A stretch of DNA of 20,007 nucleotides from a virus, in IMG/VR virus record IMGVR_UViG_3300046457_000069, positions 1 to 20,007 of that record. One strand, 5' to 3'. Below the pieces are notes generated by a model. The model did no database searches. It was not told the DNA's origin and saw only the letters and a list, made by a program, of their open reading frames with translations. Positions 4,419 to 10,578 of the stretch are shown piece by piece (the first letter of the stretch is position 1; the number at the start of each line of letters is the position of its first letter). Position numbers and translations under genes: made by a program.

Positions 4419-5364
4419 TTAAAATACCTCCTGAATCGTCGGTGTACGGAGGAATCGTGACCGCTTGATTTCCGCTGATGTTCGTGTCGCCGCCGAGTTG
4501 CGGGTTCGCCTTCTGCAACGCCGTCCAACCGCTCACCTTGCCGTAATACTTCGATGCGAGGTCAAAGAGCGAGCCGCCGGAGACCTGAACGGTTTTCACG
4601 CCGCTGTTGATCTGCCCGACGTTCGAACCCATGCGCCCGAGAACGCTATTCAGGTTCACGAGCGCGGCTTGATTCGTCATCGCATTAATTTGCGTGCTGA
4701 GTTTCGCAACGTTCGTCGAGAGCGGGTTATTCGGCAGAATGCCGCCGAGCGTCGTGACGCTTTGCAGTGTGTTTTCGGTCGACGAAATCAGGACTTGCAC
4801 CTGCGAGCGCACGGCGTTGAGCGGTTGCAACACGCTGTTGAGCGTGCTTTTTGCCGCACTCGCGAACGACGAGACCGTGCTGATAGCCGAGTTGAGCGAC
4901 GCCATCGGCGCGGCGAGCGAAGGGAAGCCCGACGCCAGCGTGTTCGCGGTCGCGAGGTCGCCGCTCATCAGGTCGTCGATCGTCGGCACAGCGCCGCCGC
5001 CATCGTCGTTCAGATAGTCTTGAACGACCGTGCATGAGATGCGGTACGGAATCTGATAATCACGCTGATAGTCCGCTTCGAACTCGGTGATGACGACTTT
5101 GTACAGAAATTCCGACCATGACAGCGTGAGCGGCAAGCCGTCGTCGTGCATCGACTTCAGCGTGAGCGCGCGATCGAGCGCCGTTGTGCCGACGAGCCAA
5201 CCTGACCAGTCGAGCGGCGCGTGATCGGCGCCGAGCATATCGACCTGACGAGCGCCGCCGACCAGCCGGTGAACAATCGCCTGATGCCGCGACCGAACGT
5301 TGATGTGCTCGGGAATCTCGTACTCAGAGAATACGAAATCGCCTAGGGTGAGAACGGTCGCCAT
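4411..5364 (-). CDS. LysM-domain baseplate/tail protein
   Basis: A 317-residue protein in three parts. Residues 1-118 form a compact beta-rich domain (FVFSEYEIPEHINVRSRHQA, then LSWSEFLYKVVITEFEADY) like the N-terminal domain of baseplate proteins encoded between tape measure and hub. Residues about 125-250 are low-complexity, Ser/Ala/Asn/Leu-rich and probably helical. Residues about 256-306 are a LysM module (GGSLFDLASKYYG, WTALQKANPQ, ending VTIPP). LysM domains bind peptidoglycan or, in T4 gp53 and relatives, hold baseplate parts together. The start overlaps the tape measure stop by one base. Exact family (gp53-like versus DNA-circulation type) is not resolved. Confidence 0.78.
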   Translation of the reverse strand: MATVLTLGDFVFSEYEIPEHINVRSRHQAIVHRLVGGARQVDMLGADHAPLDWSGWLVGTTALDRALTLKSMHDDGLPLTLSWSEFLYKVVITEFEADYQRDYQIPYRISCTVVQDYLNDDGGGAVPTIDDLMSGDLATANTLASGFPSLAAPMASLNSAISTVSSFASAAKSTLNSVLQPLNAVRSQVQVLISSTENTLQSVTTLGGILPNNPLSTNVAKLSTQINAMTNQAALVNLNSVLGRMGSNVGQINSGVKTVQVSGGSLFDLASKYYGKVSGWTALQKANPQLGGDTNISGNQAVTIPPYTDDSGGILSA

Positions 5365-7232
5365 TAGTAAGCCATCCCTGCGGACGCTTGTCCGAACGTG
5401 AAGTCGAAGGTGTTCGAGTTGCCCGGTGCGCTCGCGTCTTTCGCCATTTGCTTAGACAGCACTTCACCGACCTTTTTCGAGTCGAGATAGACGTCGCCCT
5501 GCTTTCCGCCGGCGCCTGCTTGCGCGGCGGTCCTTACGTTCGATGACGGCTCTTTGGGTTGAGCCGGCGCGGCGCCAGGAGCGCGAGGAGGCTCGTATGA
5601 AGCCGGCGCCGCACTAGGAGCACGAGGCGGCTCGTATGAGGCCGGCGCGGCGTCAGGAGTGTGAGTCGGCTCATCGGCCGAAGCCGGCGCGACAGCGGGC
5701 GCATCCATCGCGCCGACGCCGGGTATCGTCGCTGCTCCCGGCATTTTTCCGTCGCCGCCGAGCCATGTCGGGCGGTGCTCCCACAGCCCTTTAAGCGTGC
5801 CCCAAAACCCGACAAGCAAGCCGGTCACGATCGGGATTGCAACCGCAAGACCGCCGACCACCCATGCCAAACCGGAGCCAAGACCAAGCGCGCCGGCGAG
5901 CGTCGTGACAACGCCAATCGTTACAGCGATGACGCCACCGATCGCGAGGAACGCGGCGAACATTGCCATCGAGACAGCGACAACCTTCACGAGCGCCGGG
6001 TGATCCTTCGCGAAGCCCGCGACCGACTCCATGATGTCGGCGAGTTTGCTCAAACCCTTGATCGCCATCGGAAGCACGGCGATACCGACGCGCAACATGA
6101 GGTCGTGCCATTTCGCCGACAGGATCGTGAACTGCTGATCGAGCGGCGAACCCTTCGTTTTGAGCGATTCGTCGAGACCCTTTTGCTTTCCAACCGCCTG
6201 TTCGGAAGCATCCATAAGCGTGCTTTCGCGCTGGAAATTGCCGATCAGTTTGCCGCCCGTCGAACTGCCGATGATCTGATCGACCATTCGCCGCCCGGCG
6301 TCATCGTTCGCGCCCGCCGCCTTGTAGAACTCGGGCATGTGCTTCAGAACCCATTTGTCGGCGTCGAGTTGCAGAGTCGTCGCGTCGATAACGTGCCCGC
6401 CCTGATCCATGACGCCCCATTTCTTCAGCTTTTCAAGCTGATAGCCGCCAGTCGGGCCGTTGAATCCAACGTGCGCGAGCATGCGGTTTTGGAGTGTGCG
6501 CAGCGCGACACCGAAGCCCGGCCCCATCTGCTGCATAATCGGCTCGGCGCGAGCGAGAAAGCCGTTCGAGACCTTCTGCAAGTCGGCAGGATCAGCCGCA
6601 AAGATCGCGCGCAGAGTCCCCGCCTTCAGCGTGCCGTTCCCGGACGCCATCAGCTTATAGAGCAGGTCGGCACGCTCTTCGGTGTTCACGCCGTTATTGA
6701 ACCCGCCGCTCAGTTCGAGCGCCTTGACGAAGCTTTGGCGCTCGGCGTCAGACGTGTGCTTACCGCTCGCCTTGTCGATCGCCTCCATCTTTGCCAGGAT
6801 CGGCGCGAGGCGCAGCGTATGGTGAGCGTCGTCGCGCCCGGCATCGCGCGTCAGTGCGAACGCCTCGACGGCGACGCCCATTTTCTCGTTGACCGACAGA
6901 TTGCGAATCGACTTGTCGTTGTTCGCCCAATCTGTGATCGACTGCAACTGCGCCAGCTTGGCGCCGTTGCTCATAATGTCGTTTTGTAGCTTGACGAACT
7001 TGTTCGCCTCTTCGAGCGGGCTTTTAAAAGCCATCGCAAGACCAACGCCCATGCCCGCACTTAGTGCGCCGCCGAACATAAGCTTTGTCGCGCCGCTCAT
7101 TCGCGAAATGGATTTACGCAAGCGCTCTGCGGCATGTTCGGCGTGTCCGAACTGGTTTGCCATTTGCAAAAGGCCGTGCGATACTCCATTCAGCAGGGAT
7201 ACTCGGACCCCAATGCGGAATGCTTCAAAAAT
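5364..7232 (-). CDS. Tape measure protein with probable ATT start
   Basis: 622 residues if begun at ATT (7230-7232). The first ATG (7163) would remove FEAFRIGVRVSLLNGVSHGL, a segment typical of tape measure N-termini. A near-perfect Shine-Dalgarno AAGGGAGGT (7237-7245) sits 5 bases before ATT; no ATG, GTG or TTG lies in frame between the upstream stop and that site. The remaining part has a hydrophobic patch (about 51-69), a long helical middle, membrane-like segments at about 414-478 (MAMFAAFLAIGGVIAVTIGV), Pro/Ala repeats at about 515-557, and a C-terminal DVYLDSKKVGEVLSKQM segment common in tape measures. Role: sets tail length, fills the tube, and probably helps DNA cross the inner membrane. 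It is short for the family, predicting a short tail. Identity is strong; the ATT start is inference. Confidence 0.85.
   Translation of the reverse strand: MFEAFRIGVRVSLLNGVSHGLLQMANQFGHAEHAAERLRKSISRMSGATKLMFGGALSAGMGVGLAMAFKSPLEEANKFVKLQNDIMSNGAKLAQLQSITDWANNDKSIRNLSVNEKMGVAVEAFALTRDAGRDDAHHTLRLAPILAKMEAIDKASGKHTSDAERQSFVKALELSGGFNNGVNTEERADLLYKLMASGNGTLKAGTLRAIFAADPADLQKVSNGFLARAEPIMQQMGPGFGVALRTLQNRMLAHVGFNGPTGGYQLEKLKKWGVMDQGGHVIDATTLQLDADKWVLKHMPEFYKAAGANDDAGRRMVDQIIGSSTGGKLIGNFQRESTLMDASEQAVGKQKGLDESLKTKGSPLDQQFTILSAKWHDLMLRVGIAVLPMAIKGLSKLADIMESVAGFAKDHPALVKVVAVSMAMFAAFLAIGGVIAVTIGVVTTLAGALGLGSGLAWVVGGLAVAIPIVTGLLVGFWGTLKGLWEHRPTWLGGDGKMPGAATIPGVGAMDAPAVAPASADEPTHTPDAAPASYEPPRAPSAAPASYEPPRAPGAAPAQPKEPSSNVRTAAQAGAGGKQGDVYLDSKKVGEVLSKQMAKDASAPGNSNTFDFTFGQASAGMAY
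5562..5690 (-). repeat. Tandem 39-bp repeat coding Pro/Ala-rich 13-residue units in the tape measure
   Basis: The tape measure contains APASYEPPRAPSA followed directly by APASYEPPRAPGA, preceded by a degenerate 14-residue copy (APASADEPTHTPDA) and followed by a truncated APAQPKEP. The 39-base period is visible in the DNA: GGCTCGTATGA recurs at 5590 and 5629 on the plus strand. It is probably a flexible linker between the membrane-like region and the C-terminal segment. Confidence 0.85.
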
Positions 7233-7236
7233 TTTG

Positions 7237-7245
7237 ACCTCCCTT
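7237..7245 (-). promoter_or_regulatory. Strong Shine-Dalgarno that sets the ATT start of the tape measure gene
   Basis: Minus-strand AAGGGAGGT, one base away from the ideal AAGGAGGT core, followed by 5 bases and then ATT. Any ATG lies at least 60 bases downstream, far beyond working distance. Its GGAG can pair with the preceding CTCC over a four-base loop (GAAG), so the site could be partly hidden in a 4-bp hairpin. Confidence 0.6.
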
Positions 7246-7256
7246 CGGAGTTGACA

Positions 7257-7481
7257 ATGAGAAGTCGGTTAGGCTTTAGACTCCACGATTGGGCCGCGTC
7301 AAACTTCAGCGCGCCTCAATATCCGCGCTCGCGCGCAGTCTTTATCGAGCGCACGAGCGGATTCGATCGATTCTTTGCGATTTGGATGCGATCGCTCAAA
7401 GTGATCGCGCTGACGATTGTCGGCGCCGTACTTTGCGCCGCCCTGTTTTGCATCGTCGCTATGTTCGCCGCCGCGCTTTAA
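7257..7481 (+). CDS. Small single-span membrane protein candidate, opposite to the tail operon
   Basis: A 74-codon ORF on the plus strand inside an otherwise minus-strand module. It starts with ATG 6 bases after GGAG (7247-7250) and ends 4 bases inside the end of the gp10-like gene. Residues 1-48 are basic and aromatic (MRSRLGFRLHDWAASNF); residues about 49-72 form a clear membrane segment (VIALTIVGAVLCAALFCIVA) ending the chain, so it could be a tail-anchored inner-membrane protein. No minus-strand gene explains this 245-base gap, the largest in the array. I recognise no family. Possible roles include an accessory 'moron' such as superinfection exclusion, or a lysis/membrane helper; none is shown. 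No convincing promoter was found upstream. It could also be a chance ORF. Confidence 0.45.
   Translation: MRSRLGFRLHDWAASNFSAPQYPRSRAVFIERTSGFDRFFAIWMRSLKVIALTIVGAVLCAALFCIVAMFAAAL
7275..7302 (-). promoter_or_regulatory. Candidate sigma70-type promoter for the tape measure gene
   Basis: Minus strand: TTGACG (7297-7302), 16-base spacer, TCTAAA (7275-7280). The -35 matches consensus at 5 of 6 and the -10 at 4 of 6. Transcription would start near 7268, giving a leader of about 36 bases before the ATT start. It lies in the only long gap of the array. Such matches occur by chance, so this is tentative. Confidence 0.3.
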
Positions 7482-7981
7482 TCGCCATCACGAAGGCGCG
7501 CGCCGGTCATTTGAGTCGACGACTCGACGCCGCGCCCGAGAAAACCGCGCAGCAAAACGTCGTGCCATATCGCACGAATCGCCTCTTCGTTTTCCACGAC
7601 CGCCGGCCCGAGGAAAGGGCGGGGCGGGATTTTGTTCGTTCCTAATTCCTGATATACCGCGACGTCTGACGTCGAGCCGATCACCGCATCGAACCCTTGA
7701 ACGGCATGCCCCATCGAATCGCGAAGCTCGCCAGTACGCAGCAGCGGGTCGTTTTCCGAAAAGCCTTTTTCGATCCGATCCTGCTTCGTGAAATCAGCGA
7801 GTTCCGGCCAGGACGGGAAATGCCCGACTTCGGGTTGATAGTGACCGAACTTTTTGCGCGCGGTGTTCTCGATTCGCTCTGCGACAGCTTCGAGGCCGTG
7901 CCCTAAGTGCGAATGGACGGCGGGAATCATCGTCTGCGTGACGTGATTCTGAAACGCGCCGAGACTGGCAAATTCCAGCAT
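7478..7981 (-). CDS. HK97 gp10-like tail/neck component
   Basis: A 167-residue protein with the HK97-gp10/virion-morphogenesis pattern: LLRTGELRDSM (residues 80-90), a short strand region VIGSTSDVAVYQELGTNK, then IPPRPFLGPAV (118-128). The family comprises tail-completion or head-tail joining proteins. The N-terminal 60 residues are helical and rich in His. The start is supported by AAGGAG 8 bases upstream, inside the end of the chaperone extension, and the ATG shares one base with that stop (TAATG). The position is uncommon: between tail assembly chaperone and tape measure rather than in the neck region before the sheath. Its function here may be tail-specific. Confidence 0.74.
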   Translation of the reverse strand: MLEFASLGAFQNHVTQTMIPAVHSHLGHGLEAVAERIENTARKKFGHYQPEVGHFPSWPELADFTKQDRIEKGFSENDPLLRTGELRDSMGHAVQGFDAVIGSTSDVAVYQELGTNKIPPRPFLGPAVVENEEAIRAIWHDVLLRGFLGRGVESSTQMTGARLRDGD

Positions 7982-8157
7982 TATTTGCGCTCCTTGAATT
8001 CCATTCGACCGTAGTCGAATTCATTGCCTTCGAATTCCGAGAACACAATACAAAATGCCGCTCGCGTAGCGTCATCGAGAGAGAACGCGACGTCGAACGG
8101 CATATTGTTTCGCACGAGCCAAAGGGACTCGCGAACCGCCACAGAGCGCGCTAGTTT
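7981..8157 (-). CDS. -1 frameshift extension of the tail assembly chaperone (GT-type product)
   Basis: After the slippery site A-AAA-AAC (8154-8160) the -1 frame is open for 57 codons (CTA GCG CGC ... CGC AAA TAA), giving LARSVAVRESLWLVRN then MPFDVAFSLDDATRAAF and an acidic end. The fused product would have about 186 residues. Tail assembly chaperones upstream of tape measure genes make a minor extended form by programmed frameshifting (lambda G/GT is the model); the extension recruits tail subunits to the tape measure. An independent gene from ATG 8103 is the alternative, but no Shine-Dalgarno precedes it and 17 further in-frame codons would be unused. The stop overlaps the next start by one base. 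Confidence 0.68.
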   Translation of the reverse strand, partial: KLARSVAVRESLWLVRNNMPFDVAFSLDDATRAAFCIVFSEFEGNEFDYGRMEFKERK

Positions 8158-8540
8158 TTTACTTCTTCTCGCTGCGCTTCGGGCGATTCGCCGCCGAAGT
8201 TTTCCATGACCGCATTCATGACAGCGGTCACGCCTTCCTCGTCGAGACGTTGAATCGTCGCCTCGATTTCGCGCTCTGTGTTCGGATAATTGACCGCGGC
8301 GCCGTTGATCGACGCGACGAATGTGATTGGAATCACCATCGACACGTAGACCTGATTTTTTGCCGCTTCGCCGAGAATCTTGACGAGCCGGAACTGCGAC
8401 AGAACGCCCGGTTTCTTCAGCGTCACCGTCAAGCCGTTCGGCGTTTCGATCGTCACCGCTTCAGCGGCCTTTTTAACGAGTTCCTTCGAAGGCGTGTCAG
8501 CGACAACCGCTGCTTTCTTCCGGACGTTGACTGTCGTCAT
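8151..8540 (-). CDS. Tail assembly chaperone (G-type product)
   Basis: A 129-residue protein between tube and tape measure genes. It has a basic N-terminus (MTTVNVRKKAAVVADTPSKE), a strand region ETPNGLTVTLKKPGVLSQFRLVKIL (about 32-56), a hydrophobic middle (VYVSMVIPITFVASINGAAV) and an acidic C-terminus (NAVMENFGGESPEAQREEV). Size, place and the frameshift at its end fit the tail assembly chaperone, which coats the tape measure before tube polymerisation and is absent from the virion. AAGGA lies 7 bases before the ATG. The last sense codons AAA AAC, directly before TAG, form the slippery site, so some ribosomes read on into the next frame. No sequence family is claimed. Confidence 0.78.
   Translation of the reverse strand: MTTVNVRKKAAVVADTPSKELVKKAAEAVTIETPNGLTVTLKKPGVLSQFRLVKILGEAAKNQVYVSMVIPITFVASINGAAVNYPNTEREIEATIQRLDEEGVTAVMNAVMENFGGESPEAQREEVKN
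8154..8160 (-). other. Programmed -1 ribosomal frameshift site A-AAA-AAC
   Basis: On the minus strand the zero-frame codons are GTA AAA AAC TAG. The heptamer A AAA AAC has the exact X-XXY-YYZ phase for a -1 slip and the stop follows immediately, a known enhancer of slippage. The -1 frame continues 57 codons. I could not identify a clear downstream pseudoknot by eye. Confidence 0.7.
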
Positions 8541-8555: not shown

Positions 8556-8984
8556 TTAGAGCTTGATGCGCTGTTCTGCGACAAACGAAAGCTTTTGCTT
8601 CACGGTCGCGTCGCCGGCGAAATCGCCCGCATCTTCGAGTTTGAAAATCACGCCGACGAATTGATACTGCGACACGACGCCGCTTGCTTCGGTGATGGTT
8701 TCGGTGATGGTCGACGGCGCAAGGTCGAGGCCGGCGTAAAAGTTCGCCTCTTCGCTCGCGAAATAGTCGTCGAGCGTCGAGTCCTGCCGTTCGACTTCGA
8801 ACGAGCCGGACCAGCCGTCAGGGAACCGAAGGTGACGCGTGCGGCCGTCGAGACCCTTCACCTTGACGTCGGTGATGTCGGGTTTCGCGGTGAACTTAGT
8901 GACCAGCGCAAGATTCAGCGGACCGTTCGGCGTCTGGATATTCACCGAGAGGTCGCGACCGATAGTAAAGCCGTTGAGCGGCAT
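8556..8984 (-). CDS. Tail tube protein
   Basis: A 142-residue beta-rich protein (MPLNGFTIGRDLSVNIQTPN...), straight after the sheath gene. The pattern of an early strand pair, PDITDVKVKGLDGRTRHLRF (about 34-53), DGWSGSFEVERQDSTLDDYF (about 56-75) and a C-terminal region with YQFVGVIFKLEDAGDF is typical of myovirus tube proteins that stack as hexameric rings inside the sheath. Start: GAGG lies 8 bases before the ATG. It is separated from the sheath gene by a terminator-like hairpin whose U-tract ends 15 bases before the start. The chaperone gene follows after 15 bases. Confidence 0.88.
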   Translation of the reverse strand: MPLNGFTIGRDLSVNIQTPNGPLNLALVTKFTAKPDITDVKVKGLDGRTRHLRFPDGWSGSFEVERQDSTLDDYFASEEANFYAGLDLAPSTITETITEASGVVSQYQFVGVIFKLEDAGDFAGDATVKQKLSFVAEQRIKL

Positions 8985-9027: not shown

Positions 9028-10578
9028 TTACTGAACGCTCGACTGGATTTGAACCGTCTGACCGCCTTGCAGGTTGATGACGAAGAACAGCACCACCGAC
9101 AGGTATTTGACCTTGACGTCGGCTTGCATGTACCCGTTCGCGACCGCCGAATCAGGGTTGTTCGCCTTGTCGATCTGCACCGTGAACGGCGCCTGCGTCG
9201 GGCTGTTGACGTCGCCAATCATGTTCAGGCGCCAGAGGTTCGACAGGAACGCTTGCATCGCCGATTTCACTTCGTTGCGAAGGTCAACCGTCTGATTGCG
9301 ACCAATCACCGTGCCGAATGCAGCCGCGAGCGTGAGCGCGAGGTAATTCGTCATGCGTGTGTAGTTGTCGCCGTCCTGGCCCGCCGTGCTCGAAGCGTTG
9401 CCGCCCGTCTGCGTCGCGTAGTAATTGCCGCCCGGCGACGGGTTGCCGATCACGTCGAGACGCGCCTGATTGATCGCGCCGATTTCCGCGCTCGTGTAGG
9501 GCAGGTTTTGCGCGGTGCGTTGCGTGCCGACGATGCCGTAGAGCGGTTTGTTCAGGCTCGATTGCTCCGGCGACAGCGCGGCTTGCTTTCCCGCCCAGAA
9601 CGTAGCCGGCCCGAGCAATCGGTTCTGACTGTTCGTCGCATCGAAGTACGTCACCCAATCGCCCACGAACACCTTGACGCCGTAGCCATCGGCGCCGGCC
9701 GTGTTCAGCGCGGTCGAGACCGTCGTATAGTTCGCGCTCGGGGCGCCCTGCAAGCCGAAATAGATGCCTTCGGAGAGAGCGAACGCGAGCACCGTCGACG
9801 CGGCGGTAAGGTCCGAGTGATCGACCAAGCAACCGACCTGCGCGCCAGTGCCGCGCAAGCAATACATGCCCTTGCGCGTGCCGGCGTTGCCATCGACGCC
9901 GACGAGCAGAGCGTCGGTGAGCGTCGTCGTGCCGTCCGTGCCCGATGCGAACGTTGCCGGCGTCGTGATGTTCGGCGCGGCGGTTGCCGGGCCGGCGGTT
10001 GCAACGACGAGTTGCGACGGGCCGCGAACGTTCGACTGACCGTTGTTGATCGCGTTGACGACGTTCGTCCACAGCGCAGCGCCCGTTCCGGCGATGTTGT
10101 CGAACACTTCAGCCTGAACGCCAGGAAGCGAAATCGTCAACTTGAACGTGCTCGCCTTCGTGCCGGCGGTCATCGCCGCAGTGATCGAGTTGCCGCGCGT
10201 GCCGGTGTAGAACGCCGTCAGGTTCGCGCCGATCGCCGGCGTTGCTGCGGTGTCCATCAGCTTGCCGGTCGCTGCGACGTCGGTGCCGTCCGTGACGCGC
10301 ACGTATTGAACGGCGGTCGCGCCTTGCAGGAAAAACACGTTCATCGCGGTCGCGAGGTCGTATTTGCGCACCATCGGAGCGCCGAGCCATTGCGTCACGT
10401 CATTCGGCGAGCCGACGAGCACCGGCGCATTCACCGGGCCCCATGAGCCGATGCCGACCGCGCCGAGAATGTTCGACGGGACGCCGTTGATGATGAGCGG
10501 CGGCGGCTGAATCGACAGATAGACGCCGGGCGCGGAAAGGGCGCTGAAATTAAGCGAGCCAGCTTGATAAATCGGCAT
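9028..10578 (-). CDS. Tail sheath protein
   Basis: A 516-residue protein with the sheath N-terminus APGVYLSIQPPPLIINGVPS followed by VGIGSWGPVNAPVLVGSPND (about 41-60) and DLATAMNVFFLQGATAVQYVRV, as in Mu gpL/T4 gp18-type sheaths. The middle is Ala/Thr/Gly-rich (inserted beta domains) and the C-terminal domain (TRMTNYLALTLAAAFGTVIG, then NLWRLNMIGDVN and KVKYLSVVLFFVINLQGGQTV) is the conserved contractile core. The sheath contracts to drive the tube through the envelope. A near-perfect Shine-Dalgarno AAGGAGG lies 8 bases upstream inside the end of the 55-residue gene, as expected for an abundant protein, and the ATG overlaps that stop (TAATG). Confidence 0.92.
   Translation of the reverse strand: MPIYQAGSLNFSALSAPGVYLSIQPPPLIINGVPSNILGAVGIGSWGPVNAPVLVGSPNDVTQWLGAPMVRKYDLATAMNVFFLQGATAVQYVRVTDGTDVAATGKLMDTAATPAIGANLTAFYTGTRGNSITAAMTAGTKASTFKLTISLPGVQAEVFDNIAGTGAALWTNVVNAINNGQSNVRGPSQLVVATAGPATAAPNITTPATFASGTDGTTTLTDALLVGVDGNAGTRKGMYCLRGTGAQVGCLVDHSDLTAASTVLAFALSEGIYFGLQGAPSANYTTVSTALNTAGADGYGVKVFVGDWVTYFDATNSQNRLLGPATFWAGKQAALSPEQSSLNKPLYGIVGTQRTAQNLPYTSAEIGAINQARLDVIGNPSPGGNYYATQTGGNASSTAGQDGDNYTRMTNYLALTLAAAFGTVIGRNQTVDLRNEVKSAMQAFLSNLWRLNMIGDVNSPTQAPFTVQIDKANNPDSAVANGYMQADVKVKYLSVVLFFVINLQGGQTVQIQSSVQ

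Follow-up and report, generated by a model that had tools for sequence, protein, structure and literature searches.

The start of the tape measure frame

Tape measure proteins are needed in few copies per virion, and the question raised by the late genes of the virus record IMGVR_UViG_3300046457_000069 is whether synthesis of such a protein can begin at an ATT. The codons AUU, AUC and AUA differ from AUG in the third base alone and are poorly read by the initiator tRNA under the surveillance of initiation factor 3 (IF3). The DNA analysed (the window; 20,007 bases, positions 1 to 20,007 of the record) carries its late genes on the minus strand, encoding terminase, portal, capsid, tail sheath, tube, chaperone, neck, tape measure and baseplate proteins that were identified by PHROG matches for some and by position alone for others (Table 1). 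The tape measure gene sits in the tail module after the sheath, tube and chaperone genes, and its product matches phrog_28 (tail length tape measure; E 6e-13), as do the proteins of relatives with ATT, ATC or ATA starts. Among named phages, a nucleotide search returned no match; a search with the protein found only distant tape measures (Burkholderia and Acidovorax phages) plus one Arsenophonus plasmid record. The gap between the neck and tape measure genes holds a small antisense gene on the opposite strand, just upstream of the tape measure start.

In the chaperone gene, a slippery A AAA AAC (8151-8160, minus strand), kept in most relatives, lies immediately 5′ of the TAG; a −1 shift there would lengthen the chaperone to the TAA at 7983-7981, overlapping the ATG of the neck gene.

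Table 1. Features of the tail module and of the tape measure start region in the window.
Feature	Position	Strand	Remarks
Tail sheath	9028-10578	-	PHROG match
Tail tube	8556-8984	-	By position
Tail chaperone	8151-8540	-	By position, with frameshift site
Neck / tail completion protein, upstream gene of late operon	7478..7981	-	PHROG connector families phrog_222, phrog_5, phrog_26
Small antisense/divergent gene	7257..7481	+	74 aa, one predicted membrane helix; homologues in most relatives
In-frame TAA, upstream limit of frame	7269..7271	-	Read directly
Shine-Dalgarno AAGGGAGGT	7237..7245	-	Read directly; also conserved in TTG-type relatives
ATT start codon, tape measure gene	7230..7232	-	Homologous codon only TTG/ATG/GTG/ATT/ATC/ATA; protein similarity starts here
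TTG 7169-7167 and ATG 7163-7161	7161..7169	-	Candidate automatic starts, judged internal codons
Promoter-like TTGCCA-17-tgcGATACT	7157..7185	+	Inside tape measure codons, directed toward antisense gene
Tape measure protein gene	5364..7232	-	622 aa counted from ATT; phrog_28 match; full-length relatives

Read directly on the minus strand, the frame runs from the TAA through 12 sense codons, none of them ATG, GTG or TTG, to the ATT, which is followed by TTT GAA GCA. An earlier reading of this DNA from its letters alone (the sequence-only reading) had proposed the ATT as the start and the stretch between the TAA and the ATT as free of canonical starts, as is now confirmed. Its spacing of 5 bases between a near-perfect Shine-Dalgarno (SD) sequence and the ATT holds when measured from the GGAGG core, the spacer between the whole AAGGGAGGT and the ATT being 4 bases (CAAA). 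The first canonical in-frame codons 3′ of the ATT are the TTG and the ATG of Table 1, which it had likewise named as the probable automatic choices; neither has a well-placed SD.

Conservation of the N-terminal residues

The 21 residues that an automatic start would lose (I-FEAFRIGVRVSLLNGVSHGL) form the best conserved part of the tape measure protein. The IMG/VR relatives can be aligned starting with the codon that follows the ATT, similarity beginning exactly there; the segment FEAFRIGVRVSLLNGVSHGLLQM has the highest conservation in a protein that is otherwise down to 38% identical, and E3, A4, I7, G8, L13 and N15 are invariant among 22 divergent proteins. Across codons 2-21 change is mainly synonymous, also in comparisons involving genes that start with ATT, ATC or ATA (together, ATH): 5 synonymous and 0 non-synonymous changes separate the window from its near relative L002, while 7 and 1 separate the ATT-type L087 and L141, and 12 and 5 separate L087 and L068. 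Beyond its start, each ATH-type gene is intact (~580-630 aa), and its first codons are under purifying selection. The DNA 5′ of the start codon is unrelated between lineages, often with a stop within a few codons.

Since conservation starts at the ATT codon while the DNA upstream of it is unrelated among lineages, the N-terminus is placed there, and shorter start calls therefore lose 21-23 conserved residues. The roughly 20 residues that the sequence-only reading had assigned to the protein are conserved in dozens of relatives, and similarity among homologues does not end at MANQF but extends upstream to the ATT codon. These comparisons indicate that translation of the tape measure very probably starts at ATT 7232-7230.

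Start codons across relatives

The relatives' codon at the ATT position, which had been suggested as a check, is TTG in the nearest group (L002, L003, L007, L008, L060 and others), ATG in most of the remaining relatives farther off and GTG in one bacterial prophage. ATT itself was found in the window plus nine other contigs (L040-L043; L058; L068; L084/L092; L087; L141), ATC in five (L053-L057) and ATA in one (L128), so that 16 contigs including the window, the 15 others from many separate metagenomes, carry an ATH codon. Counted as distinct 51-base contexts, there are 17 ATG, 5 TTG, 1 GTG, 8 ATT, 1 ATC and 1 ATA (ATH, 10 of 33). The tally was made with a pattern that fixes only residues after the start codon, and no further codon was seen among its matches; because the whole viral collection was scanned with an ATH as well as an NTG version, the tally was not selected for ATT. 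In bacterial prophage relatives the codon is ATG or GTG. The 394 sampled Burkholderiaceae isolate genomes yielded no isolate with ATT at this start, and order- and class-wide searches added almost nothing.

In a tree built from residues 2-140, seven changes of the ATH state are counted; grouping all ATH carriers in one clade is rejected (AU test; p 1e-45). The ATH codons are carried by six leader types. A near-identical leader (GGGGGCTAAA) is common to L040 and L092, and another to L053 and L068, whose tape measures are distantly related; start regions thus appear to have been exchanged by recombination, which probably contributed to the spread of ATH codons, and the independent origins may therefore number about five to six, not seven. 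No canonical in-frame start lies upstream of the codon in the window, L087, L141, L068, L058 or L128 (the in-frame stop being a TAG 5 codons back in L087 and standing 66 codons back in L128). In L040/41, L092 and L053 an in-frame TTG occurs 8-14 codons upstream, and these are thus weaker cases than the window. As judged from sequence, AUU is a real start codon here, and isoleucine-codon starts recur across this tape measure family.

Shine-Dalgarno strength and neighbouring genes

The duplex of AAGGGAGGT with the anti-SD has a predicted energy of ~ −12.8 kcal/mol, which is one of the strongest values for the window genes tested. Across the relatives, predicted pairing of the anti-SD in the 16S tail ranges from −7.4 to −12.8 kcal/mol for ATH leaders, from −9.8 to −12.8 for TTG leaders and from −3.3 to −9.1 for ATG leaders. 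The ATH sites thus have a strong SD, and it lies at normal spacing; their leaders pair more strongly than ATG leaders (Mann-Whitney p 0.001, relatedness not corrected for).

The ATH codons are specific to one gene. Around 140 distinct ATG, GTG or TTG starts, and no credible ATH start, were counted in the late genes nearby in these loci (LysM protein, hub-like protein, neck, chaperone, tube, sheath and two baseplate genes), so a general preference of these phages for ATT was rejected. Odd codons in these genes were traced to offset alignments (an in-frame ATG 1-2 codons upstream), weak matches and misplaced window starts. A phage-encoded initiator tRNA reading AUU was likewise rejected, as none was found in the window or in three larger ATH contigs: no tRNA gene was detected in the window or in contig G008, and only tRNA-Cys in G011 and tRNA-Ala in G007, in contigs that may be incomplete.

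Proposed weak initiation and the alternatives

Start position, recurrence, SD pattern and gene specificity are properties established by sequence comparison. With high confidence, if slightly less than for the start position, we favour the explanation that the ATT is the start, that fMet-tRNA is placed on AUU by means of the strong SD and that the weak codon most likely limits synthesis. The SD would position the ribosome so that the initiator fMet-tRNA is accepted on AUU, with a mismatch at the third base only, and the protein would begin Met-Phe-Glu-Ala-Phe. A modest rate could be reached either by a good codon (ATG) with a poor SD or by a poor codon with a good SD, and the most likely role of the latter would be to hold down production of a protein of which each virion needs few copies. 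In the window, initiation is probably de novo, because the neck gene ends ~245 bases upstream. In L053, L068 and L092, a long upstream ORF ends 1-4 bases before the ATT or ATC codon, and translational coupling may aid initiation at the isoleucine codon.

The recurrence of a weak codon beside a strong ribosome-binding site suggests that a low rate of tape measure synthesis is often deliberate. We infer that AUU would be read by fMet-tRNA with reduced yield and with IF3 in control, the dose being the target of selection. Raised IF3 inhibits non-canonical starts (PMC2268962), and in Staphylococcus aureus starts at AUU or AUA that are preceded by extended SDs reach ~10% of the AUG level when cells grow in minimal medium (PMC13009471). 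A low-dose, IF3-sensitive reading is plausible from the pattern of SDs and start codons and from such published AUU and AUA measurements in other genes. Judged by its parts, dose control by the weak start is about an even call, and IF3-linked regulation as the selected function is less probable than that. Likewise tentative, at less than even odds, is the general proposition that a contractile-tailed phage family repeatedly evolves AUU, AUC or AUA at its tape measure as a dose setting, which would make synthesis of the ruler sensitive to IF3 and host translation, with the SD compensating.

The strongest alternative also takes the ATT as the start, and its probability overlaps that of the favoured explanation: the weak codon would have no regulatory role and would have arisen by drift that a strong SD or coupling tolerates. 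We regard it as possible though somewhat doubtful. Non-ATG codons do go with stronger SDs, and an upstream gene ending 1-4 bases before the codon, as in L053, L068 and L092, could make a poor codon tolerable. The antisense gene may also bear on the pattern, since in most ATG-type relatives its ATG and that of the tape measure overlap as CATG. Such an overlap would keep the tape measure from changing its ATG, with the SD of the tape measure lying within antisense codons, and may account for the ATG in many relatives. TTG and ATT occur where the two starts are separated, as in the window, and overlap versus separation may explain much of the codon pattern; the antisense gene is, at the same time, absent from some ATG and some ATH relatives. 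Against drift, neighbours with equally strong SDs (sheath, −12.2 kcal/mol) keep ATG or TTG, and the change to ATH is repeated yet confined to the tape measure gene.

Entry into the frame by ribosomal frameshifting or stop read-through from an upstream gene, in place of initiation at the ATT, is very unlikely. The site is A/T rich (AAAATTTTTG), a long open +1 frame crosses it in L087 and L141, and L058 has an ATG at −5 in the +1 frame and L053/L068 a GTG at −8; however, the window and L040/L041 have neither a long upstream ORF nor a credible start in either other frame, and in the window the upstream DNA is taken up by the antisense gene. Moreover, frames, leaders and preceding sequence vary by lineage, whereas the codon and the SD spacing are kept.

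Equally little credence is due to a start at TTG 7169 or ATG 7163 behind a frame that is open by chance: these are the first canonical in-frame codons, but neither has an SD at normal distance, the 21 codons upstream are the best conserved of the gene with mainly synonymous change, and the ATG or TTG of the relatives stands exactly at the ATT position. It is highly improbable that the ATT stems from faulty sequencing or assembly, or from a mutation that recently inactivated an ATG or TTG: it lies one base from ATG, with TTG in the nearest relatives, yet ATH codons occur in 15 further contigs from separate metagenomes and several divergent lineages, in genes that are otherwise intact and whose first codons are under purifying selection.

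Relation to known AUU starts

AUU starts as such are already known (infC, pcnB, S. aureus cvfC1), and what appears notable here is their repeated evolution with all three isoleucine codons. Escherichia coli pcnB likewise uses AUU, and its translation is described as limited by the inefficient start (Binns and Masters 2002, as cited in PMC13009471); it is a single host-gene case, whereas here AUU, AUC and AUA recur in a phage structural gene within one family. E. coli infC, whose AUU is described as discriminated by IF3 (Sacerdot et al. 1996 and Butler et al. 1986, as cited in PMC2268962 and PMC13009471), is the gene of IF3 itself and controls its own expression, unlike the tape measure, which has no evident feedback loop. 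In S. aureus, strong extended SDs likewise direct the non-canonical starts of cvfC1 (AUU) and of ccpN and infC (AUA), and reporters of cvfC1 and ccpN gave ~10% of AUG in one medium (PMC13009471). Those start codons are conserved among relatives, while that of the tape measure varies; those genes are chromosomal and their starts were shown by ribosome profiling (PMC13009471), while the present ones are phage genes known from their sequence.

Burkholderia phage Mica and other P2-like phages share the gene order, with the tape measure after tube and tail chaperone; the Mica tape measure has an ATG start and no FEAF N-terminus, and it is ~22% identical in the middle part of the protein. The literature searched, whose coverage was incomplete, yielded no description of a phage tape measure started at AUU.

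AUU-type starts have been regarded as oddities found in a few host genes, and ordinary start callers do not propose them. Annotated tape measures of this group are thus liable to be ~20 residues short, losing their best conserved segment; other genes are probably affected as well. With about a third of the sampled start contexts being AUU, AUC or AUA, the family offers a natural series of one site with six codons and graded SDs, in which the idea that weak starts determine protein stoichiometry during virus assembly can be tested directly.

The antisense gene and a promoter-like site

Homologues of the antisense protein in most relatives share the motif RLHEWAAxxFxxxQYP. The gene has a pN/pS of 0.07-0.5 among near relatives, and the hydropathy of its product reaches a maximum of 2.9; no PHROG family (query from 7260), Pfam family or named-phage match was found for it. 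Its location by the tape measure and its small membrane form resemble those of superinfection-exclusion proteins such as HK97 gp15, a lead that makes it a candidate gene of this kind; exclusion by HK97 gp15 is overcome by changes in the tail tube or tape measure (PMC10883804). The promoter-like site within the tape measure codons is the sole sigma-70-like match in 7000-8000 (0.2 expected) and may be the promoter of the antisense gene. Its AATGGAGTATCGCACGG is kept at the DNA level in relatives whose protein is ~38% identical.
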